From Chitinophagaceae bacterium (GTDB lineage: Bacteria; Bacteroidota; Bacteroidia; Chitinophagales; Chitinophagaceae), in NCBI GenBank assembly GCA_019638615.1, contig JAHBTL010000006.1, forward strand, positions 124,001-188,000: a stretch of DNA of 64,000 bases, written 5' to 3'. The notes under the pieces were generated by a model that ran no database searches, was not told the DNA's origin, and worked only from the letters and a program-made list of their open reading frames with translations. Below are positions 58,139-64,000 of the stretch, piece after piece. Both the position numbers and the translations under genes were made by a program. How positions within the stretch are numbered: the first letter of the stretch is position 1; each line of letters begins with the position of its first letter.

Positions 58139-58310
58139 GGTTTATAGTTTTGTTGTTTATAGTTTGTTTTGACAACATTAATCCATGAACTATAAACTCC
58201 AAACCACAAACATCTTGAATTTCAAATCAAAAATCACCAAATCAACAATCAGCAATCCCCTATAACATAGCTATCTTTAGCATATTACTATAACCTGTAA
58301 ACGATCAGCT

Positions 58311-59672
58311 ATGTCCGGGACATTTTCGAAAATCAAAAGTACTATCAGCTTATTAAGGAATATTGATTTTGACCAGTTAGCCAGGCTTTCGAAAAAGGTA
58401 GATCTGCAGAAGGTAATGGAAGGGTTTTCAAAGATGGATGACAAGCAGCTTACAATGCTGATGAAGATGATGGATGGCAGTGGCGGGAAGAAAAAAGAAC
58501 TCCCGGAGATAAACGGAGACTTTTATGAGCTGCACCTGCGCCTGAATGAAGAAGATAAGGCCCTGCAGTTACGTGTGCGGGAATTTATGGAGACAGAGAT
58601 TAAGCCGATCGTAAACTATTACTGGCTGCACGACGAATTTCCTTTTGAAGTAATACCCAAACTGGCAGAGCTGGGATTGTGCGGGGTGACGTACAAGGGA
58701 TATGACTGCCCCGGTAAATCCTTTTTAATGGAAGGGATCATTGCTATGGAAATGGGACGGGTAGATGCATCCATCGCTACTTTTTTTGGTGTGCAGAGCG
58801 GGCTGGCAATGGGATCTGTATACCTGTGCGGATCGGATGAGCAGAAACAGGAATGGCTGCCTGCTATGCATCAGCTGAAAGCCATAGGTGCATTTGGGCT
58901 TACCGAGCCCGAAGTAGGCTCAGGCGCTGCCGGCGGACTTACGACTACGGTTAAGCGAACCGAAAAAGGCTGGGTATTGAACGGGCAAAAAAAATGGATT
59001 GGCAACGCCACGTTTGCCGATGTAATTATTATCTGGGCAAAAGACGTGGATGATGGCGAAGTAAAAGGTTTTTTGGTAAGGAAGAATACACCCGGGCTGG
59101 CGGTGGAAAAGATCAAAGGCAAAATGGCATTACGTATTGTACAGAATGGTTTGATCACGCTGACTGATTGCCTTGTAGAAGAAAAAGACAGGCTGCCGGG
59201 CGCCAATTCCTTTAAAGATACGGCTAAAGTATTGCAGATGACCCGCGCCGGAGTAGCCTGGATGGCGGTTGGCTGTGCAAGAGGCGCTTACGAAAATGCA
59301 TTGGACTATACGCGAAAGCGCAAACAGTTCGGGAAGCCTATTGCCTCCTTCCAGTTGATACAGAACCATCTTGTTGAAATGCTGTCGAACCTTACGGCCA
59401 TGCAATCCATGGTATTCCGTTTGTCGGAGCTGCAGGACCAGGGACTGCTGAAAGATGAGCATGCTTCGCTTGCGAAAGTATTTTGTTCGTTGCGCACGCG
59501 CGATATTGTAAGCCAGGCAAGGGAAGTAATGGGAGGCAATGGCATATTACTTGATCACAATGTTGCCCGTTTTGTGGCAGATGCGGAAGCGATCTATTCT
59601 TATGAGGGTACCAAGGAGATCAACTCGCTGATCGTAGGAAGGGCCATTACAGGCTTCAGCGCGTTTGTGTAA
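58311..59672 (+). CDS. Acyl-CoA dehydrogenase family protein with N-terminal extension
   Basis: A 453-residue flavoprotein. The acyl-CoA dehydrogenase fold begins near residue 80 (EEDKALQLRVREFMETEIKP). AFGLTEPEVGSGAAGG and KKWIGNATFADVIIIWAK are the FAD-binding segments, and REVMGGNGILLDHNVAR and YSYEGTKEINSLIVGRAITG contain the catalytic glutamate in the position used by glutaryl-CoA dehydrogenases. The first about 75 residues (FDQLARLSKKVDLQKVMEGF) are helical and not part of the fold. Substrate could be glutaryl-CoA or another acyl-CoA. It converges with the DUF692 gene. Confidence 0.92.
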   Translation: MSGTFSKIKSTISLLRNIDFDQLARLSKKVDLQKVMEGFSKMDDKQLTMLMKMMDGSGGKKKELPEINGDFYELHLRLNEEDKALQLRVREFMETEIKPIVNYYWLHDEFPFEVIPKLAELGLCGVTYKGYDCPGKSFLMEGIIAMEMGRVDASIATFFGVQSGLAMGSVYLCGSDEQKQEWLPAMHQLKAIGAFGLTEPEVGSGAAGGLTTTVKRTEKGWVLNGQKKWIGNATFADVIIIWAKDVDDGEVKGFLVRKNTPGLAVEKIKGKMALRIVQNGLITLTDCLVEEKDRLPGANSFKDTAKVLQMTRAGVAWMAVGCARGAYENALDYTRKRKQFGKPIASFQLIQNHLVEMLSNLTAMQSMVFRLSELQDQGLLKDEHASLAKVFCSLRTRDIVSQAREVMGGNGILLDHNVARFVADAEAIYSYEGTKEINSLIVGRAITGFSAFV

Positions 59673-59686
59673 ATTAAAAGATAGGA

Positions 59687-60814
59687 TCACTTCTTCATCC
59701 ACTTCCTGGCTATTTTCCTGGCAGTTTCAATCATAGCGCTGTTCCATGTTTCAATCTTCCAGTCGGAGCATGCAAGAGAAGAAGCGTTTAATTTCTTTAC
59801 AGCGTCTTCGTACGACAGGGCTGTTTCTAAAATATGTGAAAGCTCCATTTGCTGGAAGTGTAATTTTTCATCTTCAACAATGATAGAAGGGACAGGAGGA
59901 TGGACCGGTAAAAATGAAAAGTTTTCATGGTCACGGATTTTTTTATTGTTTTTTTGTACAATATCTTCCATTCGCAGGAAATCGTTATAAAAATTTTGCC
60001 GGCTTTCTTCAGTCCGTAAGCCATTGCCCAGTTGTTCCAATACTACATACTTCAAATGAGTGCATTTTGGAATTGTTTTTTCCAGTAAGCCGAACACTTC
60101 TGACGGTACGGCATCGTCGTGAGTATCTCGCCGGATGGTCTTTTGTGTACCCGTGTCTGTAATATCCCAGCTGCCACCGGAAATATGGATCTCTCTTACT
60201 TTATGCAAAGGGTAAAGAGCGATCATCTCTTCATACCCAACAGAAAAGTTATGGAGCTGACAGAAAAGATTGTGGAGATCAAGAATAATAAATCCGTTCA
60301 CATCTTGTATCAGCTTGTCGAGAAATTCACCATGCTGCTTTACTTCCTCCAGCGAATAAGAGAAGGCCAGATTTTCAAGCCCCACAGGGCACCTGCATGC
60401 ATCATAGATTCTCGACAGGCGGTCTTTGCCAATGCTTAATGTAACGGGTGTATACGGAATGTTCAACGGCGCGCCGTGATGAAAGTCTGCGCCGGTCATA
60501 AAACCAAAATGCTCTGTTATATGATCAAAATGAAACTTTGTGCAGGTCTGTTTTAAATGATTCAGCCATTCAGCCTGGTGATCTGACCACCTGCCCGAAA
60601 ACAATGAAAAAAACACTCCGTGTCCTAACAACCTGTTTTCATTGCTATAGGCATGTAGTAACTCCTCGAACCAGCCCGGGATTTCCTGTACCTGGTACAA
60701 TGCATCAAACGACCATTCAATCGCTTCCACCCTTGATTCCTGTAACAGGGGCAGGCATCCGGCAAGGACAGCAGCATCAAGATTACAGGCAACAGACGAA
60801 AAAATTTTCTTCAC
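59687..60814 (-). CDS. DUF692 family multinuclear iron oxidase (MNIO)
   Basis: A 375-residue protein of the DUF692 TIM-barrel family. Likely iron ligands are His65 (LLGHGVF), Glu101 (HITEHFG), Glu147 (VGLENLAF), Asp179 and His181 (ILDLHNLF), His210 (EIHISGGSWD), His232 (RRDTHDD) and Glu260 (VVLEQLGN). Characterised members (MbnB, TglH, ChrH) modify cysteine-containing precursor peptides. Here a 56-residue cysteine-ending peptide gene lies just upstream on the same strand. About 75 extra C-terminal residues after the barrel are helical and could replace the separate partner protein that such enzymes usually need. No ATG is available; GTG 60814 or TTG 60820 starts it. Confidence 0.9.
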   Translation of the reverse strand: MKKIFSSVACNLDAAVLAGCLPLLQESRVEAIEWSFDALYQVQEIPGWFEELLHAYSNENRLLGHGVFFSLFSGRWSDHQAEWLNHLKQTCTKFHFDHITEHFGFMTGADFHHGAPLNIPYTPVTLSIGKDRLSRIYDACRCPVGLENLAFSYSLEEVKQHGEFLDKLIQDVNGFIILDLHNLFCQLHNFSVGYEEMIALYPLHKVREIHISGGSWDITDTGTQKTIRRDTHDDAVPSEVFGLLEKTIPKCTHLKYVVLEQLGNGLRTEESRQNFYNDFLRMEDIVQKNNKKIRDHENFSFLPVHPPVPSIIVEDEKLHFQQMELSHILETALSYEDAVKKLNASSLACSDWKIETWNSAMIETARKIARKWMKK

Positions 60815-60830
60815 TGCCAAATTTTAAGGA

Positions 60831-61001
60831 TTACCCCATTCCGCAGGCAGGGCAGGATTCGGGCAACCTGGATTTTTCCTGGTCTTTTTTTGCTTCTTTC
60901 TTTTCCTTGAGATCGGTCAGTTTATCCTTTTTGCAGGAAGTACCTGTTTGCACCGCCAGTCCGATAAGGATAGCGCTCAGAAGCGTTTTGGAAAGTTTCA
61001 T
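60831..61001 (-). CDS. Small exported peptide with C-terminal CPACGMG; candidate precursor for the DUF692 enzyme
   Basis: A 56-residue peptide from ATG 61001. Residues 1-22 form a signal sequence (MKLSKTLLSAILIGLAV); Cys23 could be a lipid-attached cysteine although the lipobox (GTSC) is weak. A lysine- and glutamate-rich spacer (24-45) leads to the end ESCPACGMG with Cys50 and Cys53. The stop codon is 10-16 bases before the DUF692 gene, so the two are surely co-transcribed. Size, position and the paired cysteines fit a precursor of a modified peptide. It could instead be a small metal-binding lipoprotein. Frames from earlier starts (61103) lack the signal sequence. Confidence 0.78.
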   Translation of the reverse strand: MKLSKTLLSAILIGLAVQTGTSCKKDKLTDLKEKKEAKKDQEKSRLPESCPACGMG

Positions 61002-61166
61002 AACGAGCTTTTTTATATTGGTTTGTAAGCCGGAACTCTTATGCTGACAGCATGGATTCGAAAAACGTTGTTTGGGGCAGAAAAAAAACAGCCTGGTTAC
61101 CATGCTGCCATAGGGTTGTCACTCCCCGGTTGTTAGTTTGCAGATCAATCTGTTAAATCAGTTTTT

Positions 61167-61391
61167 ATGAAAGTAGTAGAAATATATAAAACCAACGTAC
61201 AAAGCAAGATGCAGGGAAGCCGGATCATTGGTTTCCTCCATCGCCATTATCCCTGGTACAATGCCAATTTTGACCTGGAAGACACAGACAGGATCTTACG
61301 GGTTGAAAGCTTCCATCAGCATATCGACAATGAAAATATCATCGGCATTATGAAGCAGTTTGGCTGTAAAGCAGAGCCGTTGCCGGATTAG
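61167..61391 (+). CDS. Small HMA-like (ferredoxin-fold) protein
   Basis: A 74-residue protein, MKVVEIYKTNVQSKMQGSRI to the C-terminal FGCKAEPLPD. The strand-helix-strand-strand-helix-strand pattern, with FDLEDTDRILRVE in the middle, resembles small heavy-metal-associated-like proteins common in Bacteroidetes. The CxxC metal motif is absent, so copper binding is not supported. It is divergent from the DUF692 pair and shares a 165-base intergenic region with it. Function is unknown. Confidence 0.75.
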   Translation: MKVVEIYKTNVQSKMQGSRIIGFLHRHYPWYNANFDLEDTDRILRVESFHQHIDNENIIGIMKQFGCKAEPLPD

Positions 61392-61410
61392 GCTTCAGAT
61401 AATGAATTGA

Positions 61411-64000
61411 TTATCGCAATAATGTAACTGTTCCTTTTCGGTTAACTGTTCCATGATTATCGGTACCATTTATAAAATAGATATAAGTGCCCGTGGGAGC
61501 CGGCGAACCGTTGATCTTTCCATCCCATCCTTTATCAATGCTGCCCGAGGAAAAAATTTTGTTTCCCCAGCGGTCGAAAACCGAAAATTCTTTCAGTATA
61601 AGCATTGCACCGGGAGGAATGCGGAATATATCATTTACCCGGTCGTTGTTAGGAGTAAACACATTGGGCATAAACAGGTCTGTAAAAACCTTTATGGTTG
61701 CTTTGGCAGATCCTTTGCAAAGGTGTTCATTTTGCGCGGTGATGATGTATGTCTGGCTTTCGGTTAAATTTTTTGTGAGCGGATTAAATGACAAGGGATC
61801 TTCCAACTGATAGACCGGGCTCCATTCGTAGGCAACTACGTTTTCGGTTACCAGGGGTTTCAGTTGAATTTGAGTTCCGGAAATTATAGCAGTATCAGAA
61901 GGGTATACTGAAATAACAAGCGTATCATATATAACAGGAGACAGGCTGTTTGATAAAACGGGCGTGTTGGCACATGCGGCATCGGCGCCGGGCATCATTT
62001 CACAGGACACCTGATCTCCCGCACGTAATGTTGTTGTCCTGAACAGATCTTCATTATTGCCGGTAACCATATCATTTACTTTCCAGGTAAATACCGGCGA
62101 TGCACCTGCATTTGCAACGGATACCCGGAATTCTATGGATTCACCTGCACATGCTGCTGTTTTTGAACTTTGAATGCTGATGGATGGACTTACAGCGCTG
62201 CTTACATTGATTATAATGCTATTGGATATGGCAGTGGAAACAGGCGCGCAGGTATTGGACGGATCAATGGTTACAGTGCAGTTAATCTCATCCTTATCAT
62301 TAAGAGCAGAAGTAACAAATGTAGCTTTATTACTACCGGCGCTTATTCCATTGATCATCCATTGCCAGGAAGGGTTGTTGCCTGCGTTTTGCGTGGTGGC
62401 CGTAAATGTTACAGGATAGTTTTGGCATATATTGGTTTGAGACGCGGTGATCGTTACTGTTGGCGGCAGGGCTTCGTTTACCGTCATAGTGATGATGTTG
62501 GAAGTGGCAGAAGTGGAGCCCGCGCAGGTATACTGGGGATCGACCGAAATGCTGCAGCTTACCTGGTCATTGTTTTTTAAGGAGCTGGTAGTATAGGTAT
62601 TGCTGTTATCCCCCACGCTTATATCATTTACTTTCCAGAGGTATGTTACATTGGTTCCGGCGTTTTGTGTAACAGCGGTAAAGCTTACAGCCGCTCCCTT
62701 GCAAACCATATTATCGGGTGTGGTGATATTTACTGTAGCAGGCTCAGTGGTGCCGGTAGTGATTTTGATGGTATTTGATTCAACCGATCCATTGGGAATA
62801 CAACTTGAGTTATCGGTATAAATGCAGCGTATTTCATCGCCATTCCGGAAAGTACCACTGGTGAACCAGTTGCTGTTATTGTCTTTGTTAACGCCGTTTA
62901 CCTGCCATTGAAAATGCGGCGCTTCGCCCCCATCGGTAACTGTGGCACTGATGATAACAGGCTCGCAATCGCAAATAACCGTATTGTTGGCAACAAGGTT
63001 GACCACAGGGGTTGTATGGGCGCTGGTAATGTTGATGGTAACTGCATTGCTTGCAGATTGCGTGGCAGCTTCACAGGTACCACCGCTGGTAACATAACAT
63101 CTCAACTGGTCATTATCATTCCAGTCTGATGCTGTGTACCACGCCTGGTCGCCGCCAACGGTAATCTCGTTCCTTTCCCAACGGTAACTGAAATGAGTGC
63201 CACCATATTTCACAGAAGCCTTAAAAGTGGCGGCGCTTCCCGCGCATACTTTACCCGATGCAGGGCTGATGGTTACCTCTGGTACCGGCGTTACGTTGGA
63301 TGCAGTAAGCTTGATGATCCAAAAATCACCACAGGTGCCGTTGCCTCCCTGGTGTGGATGGCGTTCAGTTACATCGTCCGAACAGGTAATGCCTGAAATA
63401 ATGTATTGACCTGTTCCAAGCGCTTTGATATCGTAAGCCTCATCATAATGATTGCCTCCCATACTTTTTTGCCATTCCAATGCACCGGAGCTGTTTACTT
63501 TTATGACCCATACATCTGTTATAGAAGCATGACAATTAAGGTCGCCGTCATCCGACTCGGCATTACCTGCCACTATATATCCGCCGTCAGGTGTTACATC
63601 CAGGGCGTAAGCCATTTCATTCTTACTGCCCCCATAACATTTCTGCCATTGTAACGTACCCGACTGGTCTATTTTAACCAACCAAAAGTCAGCGCCCGGT
63701 CCGTGGTTACCGGATACATCGCCGTTGTTGGATGAAGTGTGTCCACCTATAATATAGCCTCCGCTCAGCACCGGTTTTATTGACCAGGCAACATCGCTTC
63801 CGCTGCCGCCATAACATTTCTGCCATGCTATATTGCCGGTATTGCTGAGTTTAACCACCCAGTAATCCGATGCTCCGTGGTTGTTGGTAACATCGCCGTT
63901 TACAGATGAAGCATGCCCGGCTGTGATGCATCCCCCGTCAGGAGTAGCCTGCACGGAGTAAGCGGCATCCTCTCCGCCTCCGCCCATGCTTTTTTGCCAT
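61411..64000 (-). CDS. Large type IX-secreted repeat protein with CHU_C C-terminal domain, 3' part
   Basis: The frame is open to the window edge (WQKSMGGGGEDAAYSV reads through 64000), so the start is missing. At least four repeats of about 60 residues begin the visible part, each with a GG(S/N)..A(Y/W) core, a DGGYIVAG-like turn and W(V/L)VK(L/I). Five Ig/PKD-like repeats follow, each with paired cysteines, then one PKD-like domain and the gliding-motility-associated (CHU_C, type IX sorting) C-terminus: MPNVFTPNNDRVNDIF, FDRWGNKIFSS, PAPTGTYIYFI. The product should be exported and attached to the surface. Function may be adhesion; this is inferred from architecture. Confidence 0.9.
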   Translation of the reverse strand, partial: WQKSMGGGGEDAAYSVQATPDGGCITAGHASSVNGDVTNNHGASDYWVVKLSNTGNIAWQKCYGGSGSDVAWSIKPVLSGGYIIGGHTSSNNGDVSGNHGPGADFWLVKIDQSGTLQWQKCYGGSKNEMAYALDVTPDGGYIVAGNAESDDGDLNCHASITDVWVIKVNSSGALEWQKSMGGNHYDEAYDIKALGTGQYIISGITCSDDVTERHPHQGGNGTCGDFWIIKLTASNVTPVPEVTISPASGKVCAGSAATFKASVKYGGTHFSYRWERNEITVGGDQAWYTASDWNDNDQLRCYVTSGGTCEAATQSASNAVTINITSAHTTPVVNLVANNTVICDCEPVIISATVTDGGEAPHFQWQVNGVNKDNNSNWFTSGTFRNGDEIRCIYTDNSSCIPNGSVESNTIKITTGTTEPATVNITTPDNMVCKGAAVSFTAVTQNAGTNVTYLWKVNDISVGDNSNTYTTSSLKNNDQVSCSISVDPQYTCAGSTSATSNIITMTVNEALPPTVTITASQTNICQNYPVTFTATTQNAGNNPSWQWMINGISAGSNKATFVTSALNDKDEINCTVTIDPSNTCAPVSTAISNSIIINVSSAVSPSISIQSSKTAACAGESIEFRVSVANAGASPVFTWKVNDMVTGNNEDLFRTTTLRAGDQVSCEMMPGADAACANTPVLSNSLSPVIYDTLVISVYPSDTAIISGTQIQLKPLVTENVVAYEWSPVYQLEDPLSFNPLTKNLTESQTYIITAQNEHLCKGSAKATIKVFTDLFMPNVFTPNNDRVNDIFRIPPGAMLILKEFSVFDRWGNKIFSSGSIDKGWDGKINGSPAPTGTYIYFINGTDNHGTVNRKGTVTLLR

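Follow-up and report, generated by a model that had tools for sequence, protein, structure and literature searches.

The two adjoining genes described here, found in the window (the whole stretch of 64,000 nucleotides that was analysed), encode a short precursor peptide and an enzyme of the DUF692 family and represent, with a probability of roughly 0.9, a 'DAG-RiPP' cassette of the DybAH/ChsAH type, with the mechanism described for it. The peptide/enzyme cassette is not unrecorded: it belongs to a kind that has been published and has an NCBIfam model to itself, and the window pair mainly extends the host list of that kind. What may surprise a specialist is how well the signal peptide of the precursor is conserved.

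The available text of a bioRxiv preprint of November 2025 (PMC12636315) describes a non-Chryseobacterium group of the ChrH subfamily in which precursor and enzyme form the minimal cluster, and the precursors end in CPxCGxG and have one extra cysteine, that of the lipobox. According to the same text, DybH, ChsH (Chitinophaga sancti), and HymH give a −4 Da product without a partner; CPACGMG is the site modified by DybH, the DybA product is a macrocycle plus a hydantoin by NMR, and DybA is tri-acylated in E. coli, i.e., it is a lipoprotein. Together with the match of the window peptide to NF050125, the DybAH and ChsAH experiments (PMC12636315) bear out the earlier idea of a compact two-gene modified-peptide system with cysteines as the target.

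The chemistry, lipidation, and partner-free activity of the window pair are those expected by analogy with these homologues. The cytosolic iron enzyme (59687-60820) would hold the precursor (56 residues) by its C-terminal CPACGMG and remove four hydrogens, generating a macrocycle derived from the two cysteines and a hydantoin; the precursor would then be exported by Sec, receive a diacylglycerol at Cys23, and be cut by signal peptidase II. Transfer of the lipoprotein to the outer membrane would probably follow, perhaps with a flip to the cell surface, leaving the modified ring at the tip of a charged tether of 26 residues. The fused helical domain of the enzyme would do the work for which other MNIOs have a separate partner. 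The features on which this scheme is built are listed in Table 1.

Table 1. Position and basis of the features of the cassette in the window.
Feature	Position	Strand	Basis
Precursor peptide gene, 56 aa, ATG start, ends CPACGMG	60831..61001	-	ORF; NCBIfam NF050125
Signal peptide (predicted), residues 1-22 (MKLSKTLLSAILIGLAVQTGTS)	60936..61001	-	Alignment; conservation versus controls
Cys23, predicted lipobox cysteine (lipid attachment site)	60933..60935	-	Precursor counts
Lys/Glu-rich spacer, residues 24-49, starts KKDK	60855..60932	-	Sequence
CPACGMG modification site (predicted), residues 50-56	60834..60854	-	Precursor counts; DybH homology
ChrH/DybH-type MNIO (DUF692), 377 aa, TTG start	59687..60820	-	PF05114, NF050165, AlphaFold2, Foldseek
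Barrel domain, about residues 1-292	59945..60820	-	Conserved residues in alignment A1
Extra C-terminal helical domain, residues 318-377	59690..59869	-	AlphaFold2 models
Cassette, missing from the nearest relative (1,433 bp, against 75 bp there)	59672..61104		blastn versus L333 of G696

The Precursor Peptide

The 56-residue peptide ending in CPACGMG and the complete DUF692 gene behind it, both reported by the first-pass annotation, were confirmed as ORFs at their positions. The enzyme ORF begins 10 bases past the peptide stop, on the minus strand; this distance to the TTG agrees with the 10-16 bases given earlier, a range due to an alternative GTG start at 60814, 6 bases further in. The peptide matches NF050125 (ChrA_rel_RiPP, 'chryseobasin-related MNIO class RiPP peptide') over residues 1-56 of 56 with 80.6 bits (cut-off 40), and the same model is matched by 24 of the 26 members of precursor alignment A2 at E ≤ 0.001.

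The C, C, G, and G of the C-terminal motif are invariant in all 102 precursors counted, a set compiled without the first peptide of L118, which does not fit the pattern, and without L065 (CLACGMG) and L134 (CPACSMG), which lie outside the strict motif. The CPxCGxG pattern followed by a TRR codon occurs at one site in the 7.18 Mb genome, the precursor gene itself, and this search found no orphan substrates. For the LysC fragment SRLPESCPACGMG, the calculated [M+H]+ is 1307.554 in the unmodified and 1303.523 in the modified form (−4.03 Da).

The peptide has a signal, as had been claimed, and the third cysteine (Cys23) that follows it points to a signal of the lipoprotein type rather than a plain one; the predicted product is accordingly anchored by lipid. 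The lipobox position is a cysteine in 102/102 of the precursors counted and is always preceded at −1 by S, G, or A (Ser in the window peptide), while the Gly of the window peptide at −3 is unusual, occurring in 1 of 102. After the lipid cysteine, 67 of 102 precursors have Lys at the third position, and Asp, Glu, or Lys predominates at the fourth and fifth. Of the 99 distinct spacers, 54 contain K[DE] within +2 to +6, where shuffling gives 16.1 (sd 3.6), and 24 contain looser surface-signal patterns, where shuffling gives 3.1 (sd 1.7); neither comparison allows for common descent. The published surface-export signal is K-(D/E)2 or Q-A-(D/E)2 in the available text of PMC5080379; the CKKDK of the window peptide fits K[DE] and, only partially, K-(D/E)2. 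Surface exposure may thus be guessed from these residues at the level of the family.

In six of the 102 precursors (L122, L130, L152, L155, L160, and L162), from Saprospiraceae-like records and other Bacteroidota MAGs, the spacer shares a motif of approximately HLxxCxxxC-x-(I/V)-(D/N)H with two additional cysteines, which is possibly a second modification site or a metal site.

The Enzyme and Its C-Terminal Domain

The enzyme matches PF05114 (MbnB_TglH_ChrH) with 100.8 bits (cut-off 25), the single match in the whole 7.18 Mb genome. Its top NCBIfam model is NF050165 (MNIO_ChrH), which covers residues 14-374 with 406.9 bits; this score lies below the cut-off of 600, and the window enzyme is therefore not a ChrH equivalog. 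Six other Bacteroidota homologues score similarly (386-408 bits). In a tree, the window enzyme falls in a group of 28 rows, mostly enzymes of Chitinophaga and other Chitinophagaceae, with weak support (98/56).

The rank of ChrH as top match and the identity of the C-terminal motif are what would favour a chryseobasin proper, S-methylated (+10 Da), exported through signal peptidase I, and unlipidated as in Chryseobacterium. This alternative is very improbable: the class-mates G496 and G550 score 707 and 686 bits against the 406.9 of the window enzyme, their ChrA-type peptides read ...SVSAQTTKP or ...GVSAQTTKP with no cysteine where the window precursor has its extra one, and the non-Chryseobacterium homologues DybH, ChsH, and HymH gave the −4 Da product (available text of PMC12636315).

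A copper buffer similar to bufferins or oxazolins, in which the cysteines would be converted to thiooxazole or thioamide copper ligands, is more improbable still. It shares with the window pair the MNIO fold, a signal peptide, and cysteines, and the enzyme matches NF050167 (BufB) weakly, with 81.9 bits; the cut-off of that model is 310, and motif and enzyme subfamily are different. Moreover, in bufferin-type MNIO loci of the phylum a partner-sized gene follows the enzyme (DUF2063 in 3/3 scanned), whereas ORFs and Pfam revealed no DUF2063 partner gene beside the window pair, and the available text of PMC12636315 reports for the DybA product no UV feature of such rings. The MbnB model TIGR04159 gives 17.3 bits, far from its cut-off of 325.

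H67, E103, H104, E149, N150, D181, H183, N184, H212, D232, H234, and E262 are invariant in the 20/20 aligned enzymes (A1). The role of the barrel His, Asp, and Glu as iron ligands is presumed from what is known of MbnB and TglH. An AlphaFold2 model, obtained with the window enzyme and 19 relatives as input (mean pLDDT 89.5, pTM 0.90), has a barrel followed by helices at 318-333, 337-345, and 361-375, and its top Foldseek matches are TglH 8hci (E 3.7e-13) and MbnB 7tcr, 7fc0, and 7dz9.

The C-terminal helical region had been proposed to do the job of a partner protein. This agrees with the available text of PMC12636315, where a C-terminal helical bundle, reported for ChrH, is common to the whole subfamily and, in a cyanobacterium-type cluster, is encoded separately as MelHc, which is needed for activity. 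Modelled alone, the domain reached a pLDDT of 84.9 and gave no PDB fold match with Foldseek at E ≤ 0.001 and no Pfam match, and hhalign against eight DUF2063-type partners from bufferin-type loci of the phylum returned a probability of 0.35%. The fold resemblance to MbnC/TglI-type partners raised by the first-pass annotation did not appear in any of these comparisons. A disguised DUF2063/TglI partner is thus unsupported by Pfam, hhalign, and Foldseek, all three of which can miss small helical domains.

Pairing across Genomes and Gene Neighbourhood

A full-length ChrH-like enzyme (at least 365 bits) is encoded in 20 of 294 genomes of the family, and in 20/20 a peptide ending in CxxCGxG lies just upstream (19 CPxCGxG and one CLACGMG). 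In the sample of the phylum, six of 392 genomes have a match of at least 310 bits, two being true ChrH above the cut-off. The scan of genome contigs gave 224 relatives, the best 80 of which are the named loci, belonging to Chitinophaga, Hymenobacter, Pontibacter, Pedobacter, Dyadobacter, Fluviicola, Saprospiraceae MAGs, and others. The peptide is present at 79 of these best 80 of 224 (78 with a strict C..CG.G and one, L134, with CPACSMG), and the pairing that the first-pass annotation had suggested looking for is thus conserved; what it had named as counting against the system, an enzyme kept without the peptide, occurs once, at L131, where no peptide was found in the range searched.

That an unrelated small ORF merely happens to adjoin a DUF692 gene of other function has the shortness of the ORF, and nothing else, to commend it; this pairing across the phylum refutes it, and the family match and the joint absence from the nearest relative argue in the same direction, so that its probability is negligible.

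Two or three tandem precursors per enzyme are found at eight of the named loci (best 80 of 224) and in five of the 20 family genomes, two of these being genomes also among the named loci with tandems. Taibaiella-type loci are of this sort (L118 = L074, L081, and L104 = L082); the outer precursor of L118 and L081 ends in CPPCGRG, and that of L118 lacks the lipobox cysteine and keeps a similar MK..KLLQAI start. In G162, only a ChrH-like fragment of 173 aa was found (102.7 bits, G162:C19:147611-147880), with no motif peptide, the only motif match of the genome lying elsewhere and running on into TGG; the fragment is likely a decayed copy, since the gene is complete in the other sampled genomes of that genus. 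In G335, a ChrH-like match of 310.8 bits (G335:C41:410-1282) contains an in-frame TGA and lies near a contig end, and the motif search of the surrounding stretch found no precursor.

Besides enzyme and peptide, no third gene family is shared by more than 16 of 94 loci, the commonest other families being ECF-sigma-like (16), SusC-like (14), and FecR-like (10), labelled by eye from sequence. The earlier statement that there is no separate partner gene is consistent with this count and with the activity of DybH without a partner (available text of PMC12636315). In particular, no conserved receptor, transporter, or protease gene accompanies the pair, which narrows the search for function.

In the window, the neighbours of the pair are an acyl-CoA dehydrogenase, a 74-aa ORF, and an 858-aa ORF. 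The dehydrogenase was not counted as a partner, since in a smaller comparison 3/5 of such neighbours came from one other genus group and lay on the opposite side. The 74-aa ORF (61167-61391, plus strand, opposite to the precursor) gave no hit in Pfam or in NCBIfam at E ≤ 1, is conserved at 86% in the relative devoid of the cassette, and by eye resembles a small HMA-like protein of ferredoxin fold without CxxC. The promoter scan yielded 2 sigma-70-like sites against 2.5 expected, which is uninformative, and the promoter/terminator scan no terminator. The Bacteroidota promoter pattern TTTG...TANNTTTG has 0 matches in the window, an equally uninformative result, and ARAGORN found no tRNA or tmRNA there.

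The Cassette as a Self-Contained Unit

The enzyme is present in one of the 12 genomes of the genus of the window, namely its own. In the nearest relative, G696, the adjoining acyl-CoA dehydrogenase is 97% identical and both flanks are found in order by blastn (window 58247-59671 at 88.9% and 61105-64000 at 84.5%) around an empty site; the two genes therefore look like a whole unit that came or went together and alone. Gain is likelier than loss, given that only 1/12 genomes of the genus has the enzyme. Six other relatives that were fetched keep the dehydrogenase and not the other flank.

One of the 70 matching plasmid records has a match covering 80% of the query: plasmid NZ_CP095062.1 of Hymenobacter volaticus (L340:3983-5116), whose enzyme is 63% identical to that of the window. 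A CPACGMG peptide, missing from the supplied gene table, which is incomplete, lies upstream of it and ends at L340:3955, and the pair is close to replication and ParA genes. Taken with the empty site, the plasmid copy indicates that the pair behaves as a self-contained unit. No relative was found in viral contigs with a one-protein query, which is sensitive to close relatives only.

Conservation of the Signal Peptide

The signal peptides were compared in 33 genomes, 10 of the family (one to two per genus from the 20 genomes with the enzyme; 10 for precursor and BamD, 9 for LptE) and 23 named loci, 24 of the 80 having been chosen by hand for taxonomic spread and L107 then left out. The lipoproteins BamD and LptE of the same hosts served as controls; excluded were two rows of BamD and one of LptE in which the reading frame was not recovered, as well as three genomes with a weak BamD match. 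SCO1 was rejected as a third lipoprotein control, its N-terminus reading as a membrane anchor without lipobox in the genomes compared.

In terms of the best ungapped 16-residue match, the mean identity is 0.556 for the precursor signal, 0.322 for BamD (28 genomes), and 0.301 for LptE (31 genomes); over same-genome pairs, the precursor signal is above BamD in 351 of 378 (7 lower) and above LptE in 444 of 465 (4 lower). The signal also exceeds the spacer of the same peptides (0.280) in 513 of 528 pairs. Among the 102 precursors, Gly14 is found in 96, Leu8 in 94, Ala10 in 91, Leu7 in 90, Lys5 in 89, and Gln18 in 68, and the conserved I, L, G, and A positions use 3-6 synonymous codons, so that the DNA is well diverged and selection acts on the protein.

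The starts had been chosen by a pattern that favours M[KNEH][LIV][SPEQDN] at residues 1-4, and for this reason the test was repeated from residue 5. With 12-residue windows, the precursor mean is 0.530 versus 0.368 (BamD) and 0.356 (LptE), and the precursor exceeds BamD in 296 of 378 pairs and LptE in 371 of 465; in the genome means it does so in 28/28 and 31/31. A within-family control, restricted to cross-genus pairs and to the last 18 residues, showed a narrower difference (0.392 versus 0.300 and 0.248), the precursor leading in 106 of 170 and 112 of 151 pairs. A conserved helix face in the signal peptide was not significant (p 0.11 to 0.22 over four ranges), and no helical interface is claimed.

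The conservation could be trivial if the cassettes diverged recently or if every lipoprotein signal in these hosts were constrained. The enzymes share a mean of 60% identity between the same genomes, against 39% for BamD and 36% for LptE, so part of the effect may come from lesser divergence, the cassette perhaps being younger than its hosts, and the smaller within-family gap points the same way. However, the less conserved spacer and the varied codons indicate that lesser divergence is not the whole explanation, the BamD and LptE signals are unalike in the same hosts, and the result stands without the first four residues; a trivial origin is, on balance, unlikely, though far from negligible. 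Signal-peptide similarity tracks the enzyme more than the host (partial correlations of 0.45 and 0.36 versus 0.17 and 0.18), a pattern that linkage of two neighbouring genes would also give.

A Possible Leader Role for the Signal Peptide

The conservation of the signal peptide suggests, and is compatible with, a role as recognition leader. In the boldest form, to which we assign somewhat less than even chances, the signal peptide would double as a sequence-specific leader held by the ChrH-type enzyme, perhaps through its fused C-terminal helical domain, and would be masked from Sec until ring formation at the C-terminus is complete. Less boldly, it may be bound by another dedicated factor, or the cleaved fragment may itself be functional.

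The available text of PMC12636315 proposes that recognition of the motif only relaxes selection on the precursor N-terminus, and reports that GFP-CPACGMG is modified on over-expression; the conserved signal peptide of DybA-like precursors is the reverse of such relaxed selection. The same text describes lipidated DybA as only partly modified, which implies that modification competes with export. The literature searched, the available text of PMC12636315 included, makes no statement on signal-peptide conservation in the DybA-like group.

Antoine et al. (PMC12452194) see an open problem in how a RiPP precursor bearing a Sec signal is kept waiting until it has been modified; their available text speculates that in bufferins the partner protein masks the signal peptide and mentions preliminary support. 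If true, the leader role would amount to export proofreading for RiPP lipoproteins within one enzyme and no partner protein, and would contradict the view that the motif alone matters; in a partner-free system the masking idea becomes testable with two genes.

Comparison with Known Systems

Methanobactin (MbnABC) and pearlin (TglAHI) enzymes have the barrel fold of the window enzyme in common with it (Foldseek 7tcr and 8hci); these systems differ in their separate partners MbnC and TglI, in leaders without Sec signals, and in their products. Bufferins and oxazolins (BufABC, HvfABC) are closer in that an MNIO acts on cysteines of a Sec-exported precursor; in contrast to the window pair, they have a separate DUF2063 partner, other motifs, and aromatic copper-binding rings.

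Chryseobasin (ChrA/ChrH/ChrI of Chryseobacterium; PMC10214503) shares the CPACGMG motif and the enzyme subfamily. Unlike the window peptide, ChrA is longer, lacks the extra cysteine, and carries a signal for signal peptidase I; its product is S-methylated and its operon contains more genes. The window enzyme misses the NF050165 cut-off.

With DybAH (Dyadobacter crusticola), ChsAH (Chitinophaga sancti), and HymAH (Hymenobacter gelipurpurascens), as presented in the available text of PMC12636315, a comparison of the genes alone revealed no difference of kind, the window peptide being particular for the Gly at lipobox −3. The window pair has in common with these systems the CPxCGxG end, the extra cysteine of the predicted lipobox, and the organization as a two-gene unit without partner gene, in which the enzyme carries a fused C-terminal helical bundle.
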